Below the pieces are notes generated by a model. The model saw only the letters and a program-made list of their open reading frames with translations, was not told the DNA's origin and did not search any database. DNA of 64,000 bases from Faecalibacter rhinopitheci. Its GTDB lineage: Bacteria; Bacteroidota; Bacteroidia; Flavobacteriales; Weeksellaceae. The position numbers and the translations under genes are program-made. The stretch is taken from positions 186,001-250,000 of the forward strand of contig NZ_JADGIK010000001.1 of assembly GCF_015234135.1 (NCBI RefSeq). The letters are read 5' to 3'. Positions 1,445 through 63,240 of this stretch are shown piece after piece (position 1 is the stretch's first letter; the number at the start of each line of letters is the position of its first letter).

Positions 1445-3550
1445 ATGAAAGACAATAAGAAAATTGAACAAATTAAAAATCATTTAGTAGATAATGATAA
1501 TAAAGTGCTATCTACAAATGATGGAATGCCTATCAATGACAATAACAATAGCTTAAAAGCTGGTGAAAGAGGTCCATCTCTACAACAAGTTCATATTTAT
1601 TTAGATAAAATGATGCACTTTGATCGCGAAAGAATTCCAGAACGTGTAGTACATGCTCGTGGAAGTGGCGCTCATGGTGTTTTTGAAATGAAAGAGGATA
1701 TATCAGATTTAACTATTGCTAAATTCTTACAAAAGGGTACTAAAACACCAGTTTTTGTACGATTTTCTACAGTCGCTGGTTTTAAAGGTTCTACAGATTT
1801 AGCAAGAGATGTAAGGGGATTTTCAGTCAAATTCTACACAGAAGATGGTAATTATGACTTAGTTGGAAATAATATCCCTGTATTTTTTATTCAAGATGCA
1901 ATGAATTTCCCAGATTTGGTACATGCTGTAAAACCAGAACCTCACAATGAAATGCCACAAGCAGCATCTGCACACGATACATTTTGGGACTTTATTTCCT
2001 TAATGCCAGAATCTGCTCACATGATTATGTGGGTAATGTCTGACCGTGCAATTCCTAGGAGTTTACGAATGATGGAAGGTTTTGGAGTTCATACTTTTAA
2101 ATTAGTAAACAAAGAAGGTAAAGGTTCGTTCGTTAAGTTCCATTGGAAGCCTAAACTTGGTGTACACTCAGTCTTATGGGATGAAGCGCAAAAAATTTCT
2201 GGGTTTAATTCAGATTTTCATCGTGAAGATTTATGGGAAAATATTGATAATGGTAATTTCCCTCAATGGGATTTAGGACTTCAAATTATACCAGAAGAGG
2301 ATGAACATAAATATCCTTTCGATCTTTTAGATGCTACCAAAATAATTCCTGAAGAATTGGTTCCTGTACAAATTGTGGGAACAATGACGTTAAATAAAAA
2401 TCCAGAAAACTTTTTTGCAGAGACAGAACAAGTAGCCTTTGATCCTGGCCGATTAGTTCCTGGAATAGATTTAACAAATGACCCATTATTACAAGGTAGA
2501 ATTTTTTCTTATATGGATACTCAAAACTATCGTTTAGGAGGTCCAAACTTCCATGAACTTCCTATTAATAGATCTATCAAACAAAAACATAACAATCAAA
2601 AAGACGGATTTAGTAGAACTGATATTTTAAAAGGTGATGTAAGTTATTTTCCAAATAGTAAAGCTTCAGGATGTCCTTATCATGCTATGTTAAAAGGAGA
2701 AGAAATTGGTTTTGAATCTCATAAAGAAAAATTACAAGGAGAAAAAGTAAGAGCTAGATCATCTTCTTTTGCTGATCATTTCTCACAAGCAACATTATTT
2801 TTTCAATCTCAATCAGAAATTGAACAATTACATATAATTAATGCCTTATCATTTGAACTAAGTAAAGTTAACGACCCAAAAATTAGAGAAAGGCAAGTTG
2901 CAATATTAAATCAAATAGATAAAAATTTAGCAAAAAAAGTTGGAGATAATCTAAATATTACGCCAAAAGATTCTTTAGATGATCTAACATTAAAATTTGC
3001 TAGACAAAATCATCCTGAGTATCCTTTACCGACTAAACCACAAGAAATACAGAAGTCGGAGCCACTTAGTATGAAAATTGAAAAAGGAGAAGGTACAATC
3101 GAAACCCGCAAGGTTGCATTTTTAGTAGATGATGGTGTATCTAAAGAAAGTGTTGATCAATTAAAGAATGTACTTGAAAGTGAAGGTGCTGAGGCTGTTC
3201 TTATTTCAAGTAAAGTTGGCCCTTTAAAATACAAAGAAGGTGACATTGAAAATATTCAAAATTCTTATTTAACTGATGCTTCTGTTTTGTACGATGCTTT
3301 TTATACTCCAGATGGTGATTCAGTTGAAAAATTAAGAAACAATAATGAGTATAAAGAATTTATCAAAGATGCATTTAAACATTGTAAAGTTATAGGCTTT
3401 GATAAACATGCTTCATCATTACTAAAAGATTTGGATCTTGAAAAAGATGATGCTATAATAATTGCAGATGATGAAAACTGGATCAAAGATTATATTGATA
3501 CAATGAAAGGCCACCGTTATTGGAACCGAGAATTAAACATGAAAAAATAA
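1445..3550 (+). CDS. katE: large-subunit monofunctional catalase (HPII/KatE type)
   Basis: This haem catalase, dismutating hydrogen peroxide to water and oxygen, is 701 residues long, which fits the large-subunit clade. The distal His is H70 in RVVHARGSG, the active-site Asn is at 142/143 in LVGNNIPVFFIQ, and the proximal haem-ligand Tyr is Y356 in RIFSYMDTQ. The catalase core covers about residues 40-430. The C-terminal part from about residue 555 (RKVAFLVDDGV) is the flavodoxin/DJ-1-like domain typical of HPII enzymes. The N-terminal extension is hydrophilic without a signal peptide, so the enzyme is cytoplasmic. It is monocistronic, closed by its own terminator. Confidence 0.95.
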   Translation: MKDNKKIEQIKNHLVDNDNKVLSTNDGMPINDNNNSLKAGERGPSLQQVHIYLDKMMHFDRERIPERVVHARGSGAHGVFEMKEDISDLTIAKFLQKGTKTPVFVRFSTVAGFKGSTDLARDVRGFSVKFYTEDGNYDLVGNNIPVFFIQDAMNFPDLVHAVKPEPHNEMPQAASAHDTFWDFISLMPESAHMIMWVMSDRAIPRSLRMMEGFGVHTFKLVNKEGKGSFVKFHWKPKLGVHSVLWDEAQKISGFNSDFHREDLWENIDNGNFPQWDLGLQIIPEEDEHKYPFDLLDATKIIPEELVPVQIVGTMTLNKNPENFFAETEQVAFDPGRLVPGIDLTNDPLLQGRIFSYMDTQNYRLGGPNFHELPINRSIKQKHNNQKDGFSRTDILKGDVSYFPNSKASGCPYHAMLKGEEIGFESHKEKLQGEKVRARSSSFADHFSQATLFFQSQSEIEQLHIINALSFELSKVNDPKIRERQVAILNQIDKNLAKKVGDNLNITPKDSLDDLTLKFARQNHPEYPLPTKPQEIQKSEPLSMKIEKGEGTIETRKVAFLVDDGVSKESVDQLKNVLESEGAEAVLISSKVGPLKYKEGDIENIQNSYLTDASVLYDAFYTPDGDSVEKLRNNNEYKEFIKDAFKHCKVIGFDKHASSLLKDLDLEKDDAIIIADDENWIKDYIDTMKGHRYWNRELNMKK

Positions 3551-40514: not shown

Positions 40515-40634
40515 AATTTGAATAATTACTCTTTTTTAAGAGAATTAAATCATTATAAATAAAAACTTTAGCTTTATAGATAAAAAAGTTTTTAATTTAT
40601 TAATTATAGAAATAATATACCTAAATTTGTGTAC

Positions 40635-40718
40635 TAATAAAAAGGAAAATTCCTTTATATTCATAGTATTTTTAGGTTGGTTTATAAAAAATGGTTTGTT
40701 TACAAACCATTTTTTTTT
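40635..40718 (+). ncRNA. candidate structured small RNA, dispersed copy 4
   Basis: This lies in the 337-base gap between the TPR gene and brnQ. A perfect -7 box TAAATTTG (40622-40629) is followed by a hairpin AAAGGAA-AA-TTCCTTT (40641-40656). Then comes the block ATATTCATAGTATTTTT joined to TTAGGTTGGTT, also seen in the three copies at 62 kb. The unit ends in a terminator AAATGGTTTG-TTTA-CAAACCATTT with a T tract. The order of parts equals that of the 62-kb copies, while both stems differ in sequence. Nothing else is evident in the rest of this gap. Confidence 0.6.
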
Positions 40719-54236: not shown

Positions 54237-56522
<2,286 letters not shown>

Positions 56523-60809: not shown

Positions 60810-61886
60810 ATGAGAAAATTAGTATTAATCCTAACGATCATTACAACGCTTGCTAGTTGTGGCGTTAAAATACCAAAATCGATGAGTAAAGAAGAATTTA
60901 AAAATTTAGAAGACGGATTGTATGCAAAAATGACTACGAATCATGGTGCAATGACAATCAAATTTTACGAAGAACAAGCTCCAATGACTGTAGCTAACTT
61001 TGTTGGTTTAGCAGAAGGACAAATCGAAAATAAAGCGAAAGCAAAAGGAGTACCTTTTTATGATGGAATTGTTTTCCACCGTGTTATTAAAGATTTCATG
61101 ATTCAAGGTGGTGATCCAGACGGTAGAGGAACTGGAGGACCTGGTTATGATTTTGAAGATGAATTTGATGCTGATTTAAAACATGATGAAAAAGGAATTT
61201 TATCAATGGCAAATTCAGGACCTGCAACTAATGGTTCTCAATTCTTCATTACAGAAGTTCCTACTCCATGGTTAGATGGACGTCATACAATTTTCGGTAA
61301 AGTTATAGAAGGATTAGAAGTAATTGACTCTATTTCTAATGTTGAAAAAACTCGTGATGACAAACCAGTTGTTCCAGTAACTATTGAAAAAGTAGATATC
61401 GTTCGTAAAGGAGATAAATATGCAAAATACAATGGTGCTGAATCTTTTATAGCTGCTAAAGAAAATCATGCAACTAAACAAGCAGAAGCTCAAGCTAAAT
61501 TACAAGCAGAAAAAGATGCAGAAATTGCTCGCCAAAAAGAATTAGAAGCTAAAGCTATTTCTACTGAATCTGGATTAAAATACGTAATATTAGAAGAAGG
61601 TCAAGGAGAAGTTCCGGCACACGGAGATGCGATTAAAACTCATTATACATTACGTTTAAACGATGGAGAAAAATTAGATTCTTCTTATGATCGTTCTCAA
61701 CCGCTAGACGTTACTGTTGGTGTAACAGGTTTAATCCAAGGTTGGATGGAAGCTTTAACTCTTTTCAAAAAAGGTACAAAAGTATTTTTAATCATTCCTT
61801 CACAATTAGGATACGGAGATAGAGGTGCTGCTGGTGTTATACCACCAAATGCAACTTTATACTTTGATATGGAAGTTTTAAACTAA
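60810..61886 (+). CDS. cyclophilin-FKBP fusion peptidyl-prolyl isomerase lipoprotein
   Basis: This 358-residue lipoprotein (lipobox LASC, about residue 17) carries two PPIase domains. The cyclophilin part (about 38-205) has FHRVIKDFMIQGGDPDGRGT with catalytic Arg, NGSQFFITEVPTPWLDGRHTIFG in pieces, and so is catalytically intact. A charged helical linker follows (about 218-250), then an FKBP part (about 253-358) with LRLNDGEKLDSSYDRSQP and IPSQLGYGDRGAAGVIPPN. It should act in the periplasm on outer-membrane or T9SS clients, together with GldI upstream. A terminator follows. Confidence 0.9.
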   Translation: MRKLVLILTIITTLASCGVKIPKSMSKEEFKNLEDGLYAKMTTNHGAMTIKFYEEQAPMTVANFVGLAEGQIENKAKAKGVPFYDGIVFHRVIKDFMIQGGDPDGRGTGGPGYDFEDEFDADLKHDEKGILSMANSGPATNGSQFFITEVPTPWLDGRHTIFGKVIEGLEVIDSISNVEKTRDDKPVVPVTIEKVDIVRKGDKYAKYNGAESFIAAKENHATKQAEAQAKLQAEKDAEIARQKELEAKAISTESGLKYVILEEGQGEVPAHGDAIKTHYTLRLNDGEKLDSSYDRSQPLDVTVGVTGLIQGWMEALTLFKKGTKVFLIIPSQLGYGDRGAAGVIPPNATLYFDMEVLN

Positions 61887-61904
61887 AAATTTTCTAAATA
61901 TATT

Positions 61905-61933
61905 AAGGTGCTGTTTTTACAGCACCTTTTTTT
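61905..61933 (+). terminator. terminator of the DHH-gldI-PPIase operon
   Basis: AAGGTGCTGT, loop TTTT, ACAGCACCTT and a T tract, 18 bases past the stop codon. Confidence 0.88.
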
Positions 61934-62065
61934 ATGCTCTAATTTTAAATTGAATTCATCAATACCACTCATTATTAGTGAATTATAACTTTACACTATC
62001 ACTCAATAGAAAAATATTGTAGTATTTATTCATTTCAGAAGAAAATCCATCGGATATTTGCATCA

Positions 62066-62213
62066 GAAAATTAAGGTTTTCTACTTATAGGGATCATCTA
62101 ATGTTGTTGATTAGTTATCGAAGGAAAAATTTTCCCTATAATATATTCATAGTGTTTTTTTATAGTAGTTTAGGTTGGTTAAAAAGGTTTTGGGTTTCCA
62201 AGACCTTTTTTTA
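62066..62213 (+). ncRNA. candidate structured small RNA, tandem copy 1
   Basis: A -7-like box GATATTTG (62053-62060) precedes a first hairpin AGAAAA-ttaagg-TTTTCT. A long central hairpin closes with TTATAGGGA/TCCCTATAA and contains CTAAT/ATTAG. The unpaired block ATTCATAGTGTTTTTTTA joined to TAGTAGTTTAGGTTGGTT follows. The terminator is AAGGTTTTGG-GTTT-CCAAGACCTT plus seven T. Length is about 148 bases. A 48-codon reading frame crossing it is not kept in copy 2. Confidence 0.65.
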
Positions 62214-62339
62214 TTACAAAAAATATTCGACGCTAAACTTGTTTTAAAAATGGGATTTATAAATAAAAATTATTGTTTAATAGAAAAATATTGTAGTATT
62301 TATTCATTTCAGAAGAAAATCTATTGGATATTTGCATCA

Positions 62340-62488
62340 GAAAATTAAGGTTTTCTATTTATAGGGATTATCTAATGTTGTTGATTAGTAGTAGTAGAAA
62401 AATTTTCCCTATAATATATTCATAGTGTTTTTTTTATAGTAGTTTAGGTTAGTTAAGAAGGTTTTGGGTTTCCAAGACCTTTTTTTTA
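62340..62488 (+). ncRNA. candidate structured small RNA, tandem copy 2
   Basis: This has the same parts as copy 1, with GATATTTG at 62327-62334. The stem bases of the central hairpin and the terminator are unchanged. Changes fall mainly in the apical loop region of the central hairpin (a 2-base deletion) and in the single-stranded block (GGTTAG for GGTTGG). Confidence 0.65.
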
Positions 62489-62683
62489 TTCTATAGATTT
62501 ATATATAATGTTAAATAAAAAAATAAATTATCTTCATTTCATATATTGTTTATTTTGTAAATCCTCAATTTAACAAGGGATTGAGTCAATATATTTTAAT
62601 TATAGATTTATCCTATATGTTAAAATGATAAATATTCTGTTATTTATTATATTCAGTTAAAATTATTTTGGATATTTGCATCA

Positions 62684-62809
62684 GAAAATTAATTTTTTCT
62701 ACATTATAATTCTAAAGAGAGAAAACTCTTTAAATTATTCATAGTGTTTTTTTATAGTAGTTTAGGTTGGTTAAAAAAGGTTTTGGATTTCCAAGACCTT
62801 TTTTTTTTT
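62684..62809 (+). ncRNA. candidate structured small RNA, tandem copy 3 (diverged)
   Basis: GATATTTGCATCAG (62671-62684), the first hairpin (AGAAAA-ttaatt-TTTTCT), the ATTCATAGTGTTTTTTTA/TAGTAGTTTAGGTTGGTT block and the terminator are all kept. The central hairpin is a different sequence, with AAAGAG-AGAAAA-CTCTTT inside TAATT/AATTA, at the same place. This keeps structure while changing sequence. Confidence 0.65.
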
Positions 62810-62889
62810 ATGGTTTTATTAGAGAAGTTACTTTATATATATTTAGATAGATTTTAAATTTTTATAACTCTACTTTCTCCGTAATTTAA

Positions 62890-63240
62890 TTATTTAGTAT
62901 TTAAAAATATTTGTATATTTTCTACAGGTCTGCCAATTACACCATCATTATTTTTTAACACTATTGGTCGTTGAATTAGCTTTGGATTATCAATCATTAT
63001 TTGTATTATCTCATCATTTGTAAATTCCTTATCCATGAATTCTTCTTTCCAAATTTTTTCATTAACTCGAACCAGGTCTATCGCTTTAATTTTCAAAATA
63101 TTAAGTATGTCTTTTAACTCTTCAAAAGTTAAATATTCTTTGAGATATTCTCTAATTATAAAATCTTTACCCGATTCTTCCATAATTTTGATAGCTTCCC
63201 TACTCTTACTACATCTTGTATTGTGTAAAATTGTATACAT
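62890..63240 (-). CDS. arsC: ArsC/Spx-family arsenate reductase-like protein
   Basis: This 116-residue thioredoxin-fold protein of the ArsC family has catalytic C10 in HNTRCSKSREA, with the arginine triad region visible as R91 in IQRPIVLKN and R104 in VIGRPVEN. ArsC enzymes reduce arsenate to arsenite with glutaredoxin-type partners; the related YffB branch lacks proven activity. No ars operon neighbours are present, so the name is by family. The upstream lipoprotein gene is divergent. Confidence 0.82.
   Translation of the reverse strand: MYTILHNTRCSKSREAIKIMEESGKDFIIREYLKEYLTFEELKDILNILKIKAIDLVRVNEKIWKEEFMDKEFTNDEIIQIMIDNPKLIQRPIVLKNNDGVIGRPVENIQIFLNTK

Follow-up and report, generated by a model that had tools for sequence, protein, structure and literature searches.

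FopS, a small RNA (sRNA) of Bacteroides thetaiotaomicron, is encoded by multicopy paralogs with several copies per genome. It is described as pairing with start regions, as sharing its seed R1 with a second sRNA, GibS, and as highly conserved within the Bacteroidaceae (PMC11697453). GibS is presented as a Bacteroides sRNA of 145 nt whose unstructured 5′ seed pairs with start regions (PMC7366714). The stretch of DNA that we analysed as a whole, 64,000 nt of Faecalibacter rhinopitheci (the window), contains three tandem copies and one separate copy of a unit with similar anatomy. These copies are probably short, multicopy, FopS-like genes for trans-acting sRNAs, which would pair across the AUG of mRNAs to block translation. 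Rfam searched at its cut-off gave no match in the window, and no published report of this sRNA family was found in titles or abstract openings.

Anatomy of the copies in the window

The three tandem copies lie in direct orientation between two protein-coding genes, and the fourth stands apart at 40.6 kb, as follows.

40622..40718, + strand: fourth copy; -7 box TAAATTTG (40622-40629), small hairpin, core (40658-40682), terminator (40686-40718)
55143..56513, - strand: glycoside hydrolase 109 (GH109) gene, candidate target (best-pairing start among 59 window genes)
60810-61886: cyclophilin/FKBP gene upstream of the array (Pfam PF00160, PF00254)
61905..61935, + strand: terminator of the cyclophilin/FKBP gene, setting that gene apart from copy 1 (terminator scan)
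62053-62809, + strand: putative sRNA array of three direct copies (sequence, folds)
62053..62060, + strand: copy 1, promoter-like -7 box GATATTTG (sequence; aligned TTTG boxes in relatives)
62065..62082, + strand: copy 1, 5′ hairpin AGAAAAT/GTTTTCT (fold)
62085..62141, + strand: copy 1, central hairpin, outer stem 62085-62093 with 62133-62141 (folds; a few pairs kept through two-sided changes)
62146..62181, + strand: copy 1, core, proposed seed across start codons (sequence, fold, start-region pairing computations)
62181..62212, + strand: copy 1, intrinsic terminator (fold; paired changes)
62327..62334, + strand: copy 2, promoter-like -7 box GATATTTG (sequence, aligned boxes)
62335..62487, + strand: copy 2, putative sRNA body; core 62419-62454, terminator 62455-62487 (sequence, fold, terminator scan)
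62671..62678, + strand: copy 3, promoter-like -7 box GATATTTG (sequence, aligned boxes)
62679..62809, + strand: copy 3, putative sRNA body with the central stem replaced; core 62738-62773, terminator 62773-62809 (sequence, fold, terminator scan)
62890-63240: ArsC-family gene, convergent, beyond the array (Pfam)

Consistent with a preliminary description of this DNA, sequence and folds both showed three tandem structured copies in a gene-free region. Each array unit spans about 130-155 bases and has GATATTTG-CATCAG (at 62053, 62327 and 62671), the order being TTTG box, CATCAG, AGAAAA..TTTTCT inverted repeat, central hairpin, A/T-rich core, terminator hairpin of 13-14 pairs and T run. Copy 2 follows copy 1 at 274 bases, and copy 3 follows copy 2 at 318 bases (core) to 344 bases (5′ part). 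The core of the array copies, TTCATAGTGTTTTTTTATAGTAGTTTAGGTTGGTTA, is nearly fixed; the block TTAGGTTGGTT, previously called invariant, is not, as copy 2 carries TTAGGTTAGTT.

The canonical promoter -7 consensus of Bacteroidota is TAnnTTTG. Judged by eye against this consensus, the box GATATTTG of the three tandem copies is one base off; the fourth copy has TAAATTTG. Each copy may be transcribed from its own promoter-like box and end at its intrinsic terminator. A scan with a consensus terminator flagged copies 2 and 3 and missed copy 1, which still folds to the same hairpin.

Shuffled sequences folded as well as or better than copies 1, 2 and 3 in 8, 6 and 0 of 200 cases, respectively. Copy 3 had been said to keep everything except the central stem. 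Its replacement stem, TAAAGAG..CTCTTTA, differs in sequence from that of copies 1 and 2 and still pairs with itself, but the 5′ AGAAAA/TTTTCT hairpin is missing from the minimum-energy fold of this copy. Centroid folding leaves the core of copies 1 and 2 unpaired, whereas parts of the core pair in the folds of copy 3 and the 40.6 kb copy. The fourth copy, which adjoins a branched-chain amino acid transporter gene, has a small hairpin, a related core and a terminator; over 40626-40718 it lacks the AGAAAA/TTTTCT hairpin.

Terminator stems vary between loci yet pair, with pairing in 97.1% of cells across 16 sequences. Compensatory changes, which the preliminary description expected in homologues, were found here: 10 double-changed cells compared with 2.9 in shuffles, and a covariation score of 0.255 compared with 0.132. 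Sliding the partners reduced all measures; two of the five measures were not above shuffles (3 versus 2.2 double-change pairs, and 6 versus 6.3 further pair types). For the central stem, four pairs had compensated changes among the eight array members, and the covariation term was unfavourable overall (+0.25), so this stem is weak evidence for an RNA.

We built the covariance model that had been proposed (model R1) from 16 members. It scored the four window copies at 80.2, 79.5, 70.9 and 47.9 bits (E 2.2e-7 for the last, the fourth copy), with the next match at 20.7 bits; all four copies belonged to the training set, so these scores measure separation and are no independent discovery.

Distribution in the genus and beyond

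Run over the genus, model R1 found 2-11 matches per genome at E<=0.1 in all 14 genomes examined, three of the weakest being spurious as judged by eye. BLAST of copy 1 against 60 genomes likewise hit each of the 14 from the genus at E<=0.01, our own included. In the latter, five of seven model R1 matches were sound, alongside a member on contig C12 and a doubtful member on contig C23. At the C23 site (locus L191:1500-1580), a core TTTTTTCATAGGTTTAGGTTGGT and a terminator-like hairpin lie about 850 bases after a repeated tRNA gene pair.

By sequence the family falls into several types: the tandem array, the 40.6 kb type, a long-hairpin locus, a TTTTGATTGGTT type and a short C12 type, which consists of GGCTAATGGCTTTTTCATAGGTTTAGGTTGGTTAAGG and a terminator. 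The C12 member itself is shorter (83 nt after TTTG), and its U-run pairs within a small hairpin. Box, core and terminator are found again at separate loci. At one ortholog locus, 13 of the 14 genomes of the genus share an identical block of 26 bases. The array varies in size, with three copies here and four, seven and two model R1 matches in three relatives; in all three relatives that have it, the array is flanked by the same cyclophilin/FKBP and ArsC genes.

Scanning named genomes for the exact core (TTTTTYATAGN{0,6}TTTAGGTTGGTT) returned 38 stretches, of which 29 are named Empedobacter, Faecalibacter, Chishuiella, Algoriella, Weeksella, Moheibacter, Vaginella or Weeksellaceae strain. The remainder comprise a similar metagenome-assembled genome (L132) and eight chance-like stretches, which by eye do not have the layout or lie inside open frames. 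NCBI taxonomy places these genera in Weeksellaceae, except Vaginella, which it places in Flavobacteriaceae. Across 395 genomes of the class, with up to 13 candidates scored per genome, model R1 had matches in two, our own and one with a weak Flavobacteriaceae-like match. In a genome of the same order, L112:1501-1559 (-), which carries GTTTGGTTGGTTT and a terminator, matches model R1 weakly at 35.1 bits. The pattern TTTTTCATAGN{0,6}TTTAGGTT matched six times in four of 395 phylum genomes, three of these matches being in our own; its reversed control matched three times in three genomes, so outside our own genome the pattern is no commoner than the control. At cut-off, Rfam gave only tRNAs in 18 related loci.

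Relation to FopS and other known RNAs

The nearest Rfam family is FopS (RF04319), which was not named in the preliminary description. Its model aligned end to end with each of the array copies and gave 27.8, 25.7 and 25.4 bits (E 0.07-0.22), roughly half the gathering cut-off of 56 bits. A whole-genome search with the FopS model gave 11 matches, none over the cut-off, led by copy 1, copy 3 and the C12 member (E 0.13-0.19). Copy 2 was missing from this list although it was the best in the window search, presumably lost at the first search stage. Because the same search at E<=10 also has matches in 8 of 14 control genomes, we used the rank of these matches and not their E-values. A strict FopS search of our own genome found nothing at E<=0.05.

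FopS is characterized by a single-stranded 5′ seed stretch followed by a terminator, in a model of 71 positions. The sRNAs described here resemble it in their several copies per genome and in their order of UUUUU(C/U)AU(A/G)G, a stretch bearing AGGUU and a terminator. Their core is by computation complementary to start regions, with which FopS is described as pairing (PMC11697453). Unlike FopS, the window copies have one or two extra 5′ hairpins before the core and form a tandem array, and no RRM_1 protein was found in their genome: a search for RRM_1 (PF00076) found no gene at E<=0.001, and the same search succeeds in Bacteroides ihuae. RbpB, the Bacteroides partner, therefore seems to be missing in this genome and would not be the partner here, unless it has diverged beyond detection. 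With fair confidence, we conclude that this sRNA family works like FopS, and we do not file it as a FopS member.

One possible explanation for the resemblance is that the two families come from a common ancestor and diverged below the Rfam cut-off; the other is convergence. We rate common descent, which is compatible with the main explanation, at slightly under an even chance. Alignment to the FopS consensus beats shuffles for five of six members (at most 13 of 1,000 shuffles as good), whereas the sixth is equalled by 57-66 of 1,000. Model R2, for which we used 13 sequences from outside Weeksellaceae, put the four window copies at the head of a list of 62 (E 0.004-0.023). Its sequences included two, L187 and L188, that had been found by the motif of this sRNA family, and L188 overlaps a FopS-model match (G090:C7:91631-91698, E 0.0039). 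Without these two motif-picked sequences (model R3), the window copies ranked 1, 7, 8 and 10 of 18, the array copies being 7, 8 and 10. Model R3 also matched C12-type members at the expected place in eight of eight loci (E 5e-4 to 0.27, five of them at 5e-4 to 3e-3), but it recovered none of five members that belong to other types in that set. In the reverse direction, model R1 met 12 true FopS loci at E 0.11-2.9 only; it met two other members of the class, L112 and L184, at about 1e-4.

Across the 395 class genomes, the FopS model had a match at E<=0.05 in 51 genomes, with about 20 expected by chance, and 12 were over the cut-off. Two of its matches, L179 and L180, were dropped, being by eye the antisense of gene starts. 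Genome G307 has seven sub-threshold FopS-model matches, such as L181 at about 1501-1572 (-), and these may be another multicopy FopS-like family in the class. L187:1462-1530 (-) and L188:1462-1530 (-) are a further sRNA-like unit, TTTTTTCATAGTTAAGGTTTAGGTT and a terminator, which has no Rfam match at cut-off and is common to G130 and G090, two genomes that also have FopS over the cut-off.

GibS, likened here by its description only, is presented as a single sRNA that carries a second seed, R2, in contrast to the multicopy family in this genus. BTnc231 (RF04180) matched the U-rich block and terminator weakly (15.8-18.8 bits); its cut-off is 80.4, and the match passes over a long internal segment of the model. 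Flavo-1, a flavobacterial RNA family to which the copies were to be compared, was absent from the 15 matches that Rfam gave in 61887-62889 with E-values up to 10.

Complementarity to start regions and its interpretation

We compared the cores with the start regions (-40..+25) of 59 window genes, defined as open frames of at least 120 amino acids and taken to start at the first ATG. The array core paired with them better than all 200 dinucleotide shuffles did, whereas inside genes 91 of 200 shuffles were equally good. For the C12 core, 6 of 200 shuffles were as low at starts; inside genes the figure was 63 of 200. The 40.6 kb core gave 0 of 200 at starts and 3 of 200 inside genes, so its bias is less specific to starts. 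The AUG lay within the best duplex for 55 of the 59 genes, compared with a mean of 41.3 for shuffles, of which 1 in 60 scored as high. A set of SusC-type loci comprised 11 genes over the cut-off, one of which was dropped as its N-terminus repeats that of another; for the 10 start regions, 4, 8 and 9 of 200 shuffles were as low as the three full cores in these computations. A 160-gene test was not used, since similarity to the core had served to retrieve many of its loci; the reported tests are those on the window genes and SusC-type loci. The bias of the core towards start regions is modest, with starts taken as the first ATG.

The preliminary description had proposed a structured, multicopy, trans-acting RNA with TTAGGTTGGTT as its seed. 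The first part agrees with the matches in 14 of 14 genus genomes, the paired terminator changes and the start complementarity, but the data do not support TTAGGTTGGTT alone as the seed. The full core, including TTCATAGTGTTTTTTT, prefers start regions, unlike the core cut to TATAGTAGTTTAGGTTGGTTAAA, for which shuffles were as low in 16 of 200 cases at starts and 13 of 200 inside genes, with no clear preference.

The start of the GH109 gene forms the best duplex in the window (-23.3 kcal/mol), making this gene a candidate target. The exact antisense motif AACACTATGAA is rare, with seven occurrences. Three are opposite sRNAs; of the other four, two coincide with start codons, a third falls within a coding frame and the last, as far as seen, is at neither. 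A second antisense motif, CCTAAAN{0,8}ATGAARAAA, occurred four times, compared with once for the control, and gave a single clear gene start. In L192, a gene with its start codon near 1516 (-), whose product is presumably glycosyltransferase-like, begins MKKKILIRIGSLRHGGAEKV; its DNA start AACCTAAAACTTAACTATGAAAAAG is the gapped complement of both halves of the C12-type core, the pattern by which this gene was found.

Because the core is complementary to start regions, the sRNA probably pairs across the AUG and blocks ribosome binding. The 5′ hairpins differ from locus to locus; the conserved core, UUCAUAG or UUUUU(C/U)AUAG followed by UUUAGGUUGGUU, supplies the complementarity. A single sRNA would bind several mRNAs over their AUG and stop ribosome binding, as FopS does in Bacteroides; this repression is proposed by analogy with FopS and GibS as they are described (PMC11697453, PMC7366714).

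The conservation of the core could also mean that it is a protein site and no seed, the sRNAs serving as sponge or ligand of an RNA-binding protein. The core is indeed more fixed than a seed requires, as 13 of the 14 genomes of the genus have the same 26 bases at the ortholog locus, and RbpB is described as binding the 5′ part of Bacteroides FopS (PMC11697453). We consider this unlikely, as the full core is complementary to start regions and no RRM_1 protein was found in this genome. A coding role for the core is the least credible reading: a 48-amino-acid frame spans copy 1 but is interrupted in copy 2, as had been noted, and the T-run that precedes it varies in length among copies and loci, although copy 3 has an open frame over the core part (FFYSSLGWLKK) from a GTG start. 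The change in array size from two to seven model matches over four genomes would suit a mobile or decaying dispersed or tandem DNA repeat that has no function. Such a repeat is already disfavoured and very improbable, since the core is constant across genera and terminator stems change in pairs, the same genes flank the array in three relatives, one locus forms an ortholog set in 13 of 14 genomes, and phages and plasmids gave no match at E 1e-5.

Start-codon-pairing sRNA genes remain the preferred reading of the copies. A family in Flavobacteriia that looks similar to FopS, and that combines a core constant across genera with an ortholog locus and a tandem array of varying size, would point to RNAs pairing with start codons as an ancient or recurrent solution in Bacteroidota, and its presence in a genome with no detectable RRM_1 protein would make the action of such sRNAs separable from RbpB. 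In Flavobacterium johnsoniae, Shine-Dalgarno pairing is described as rarely used (PMC8710568). It is possible, and we suggest it tentatively, that anti-start-codon sRNAs of the UUUUUCAUAG and AGGUU type form a class that spans the phylum Bacteroidota and has multiplied repeatedly, with FopS as one branch and a Weeksellaceae branch that does without RRM-1, in which the core would broadly complement starts and dampen many surface and glycan genes.
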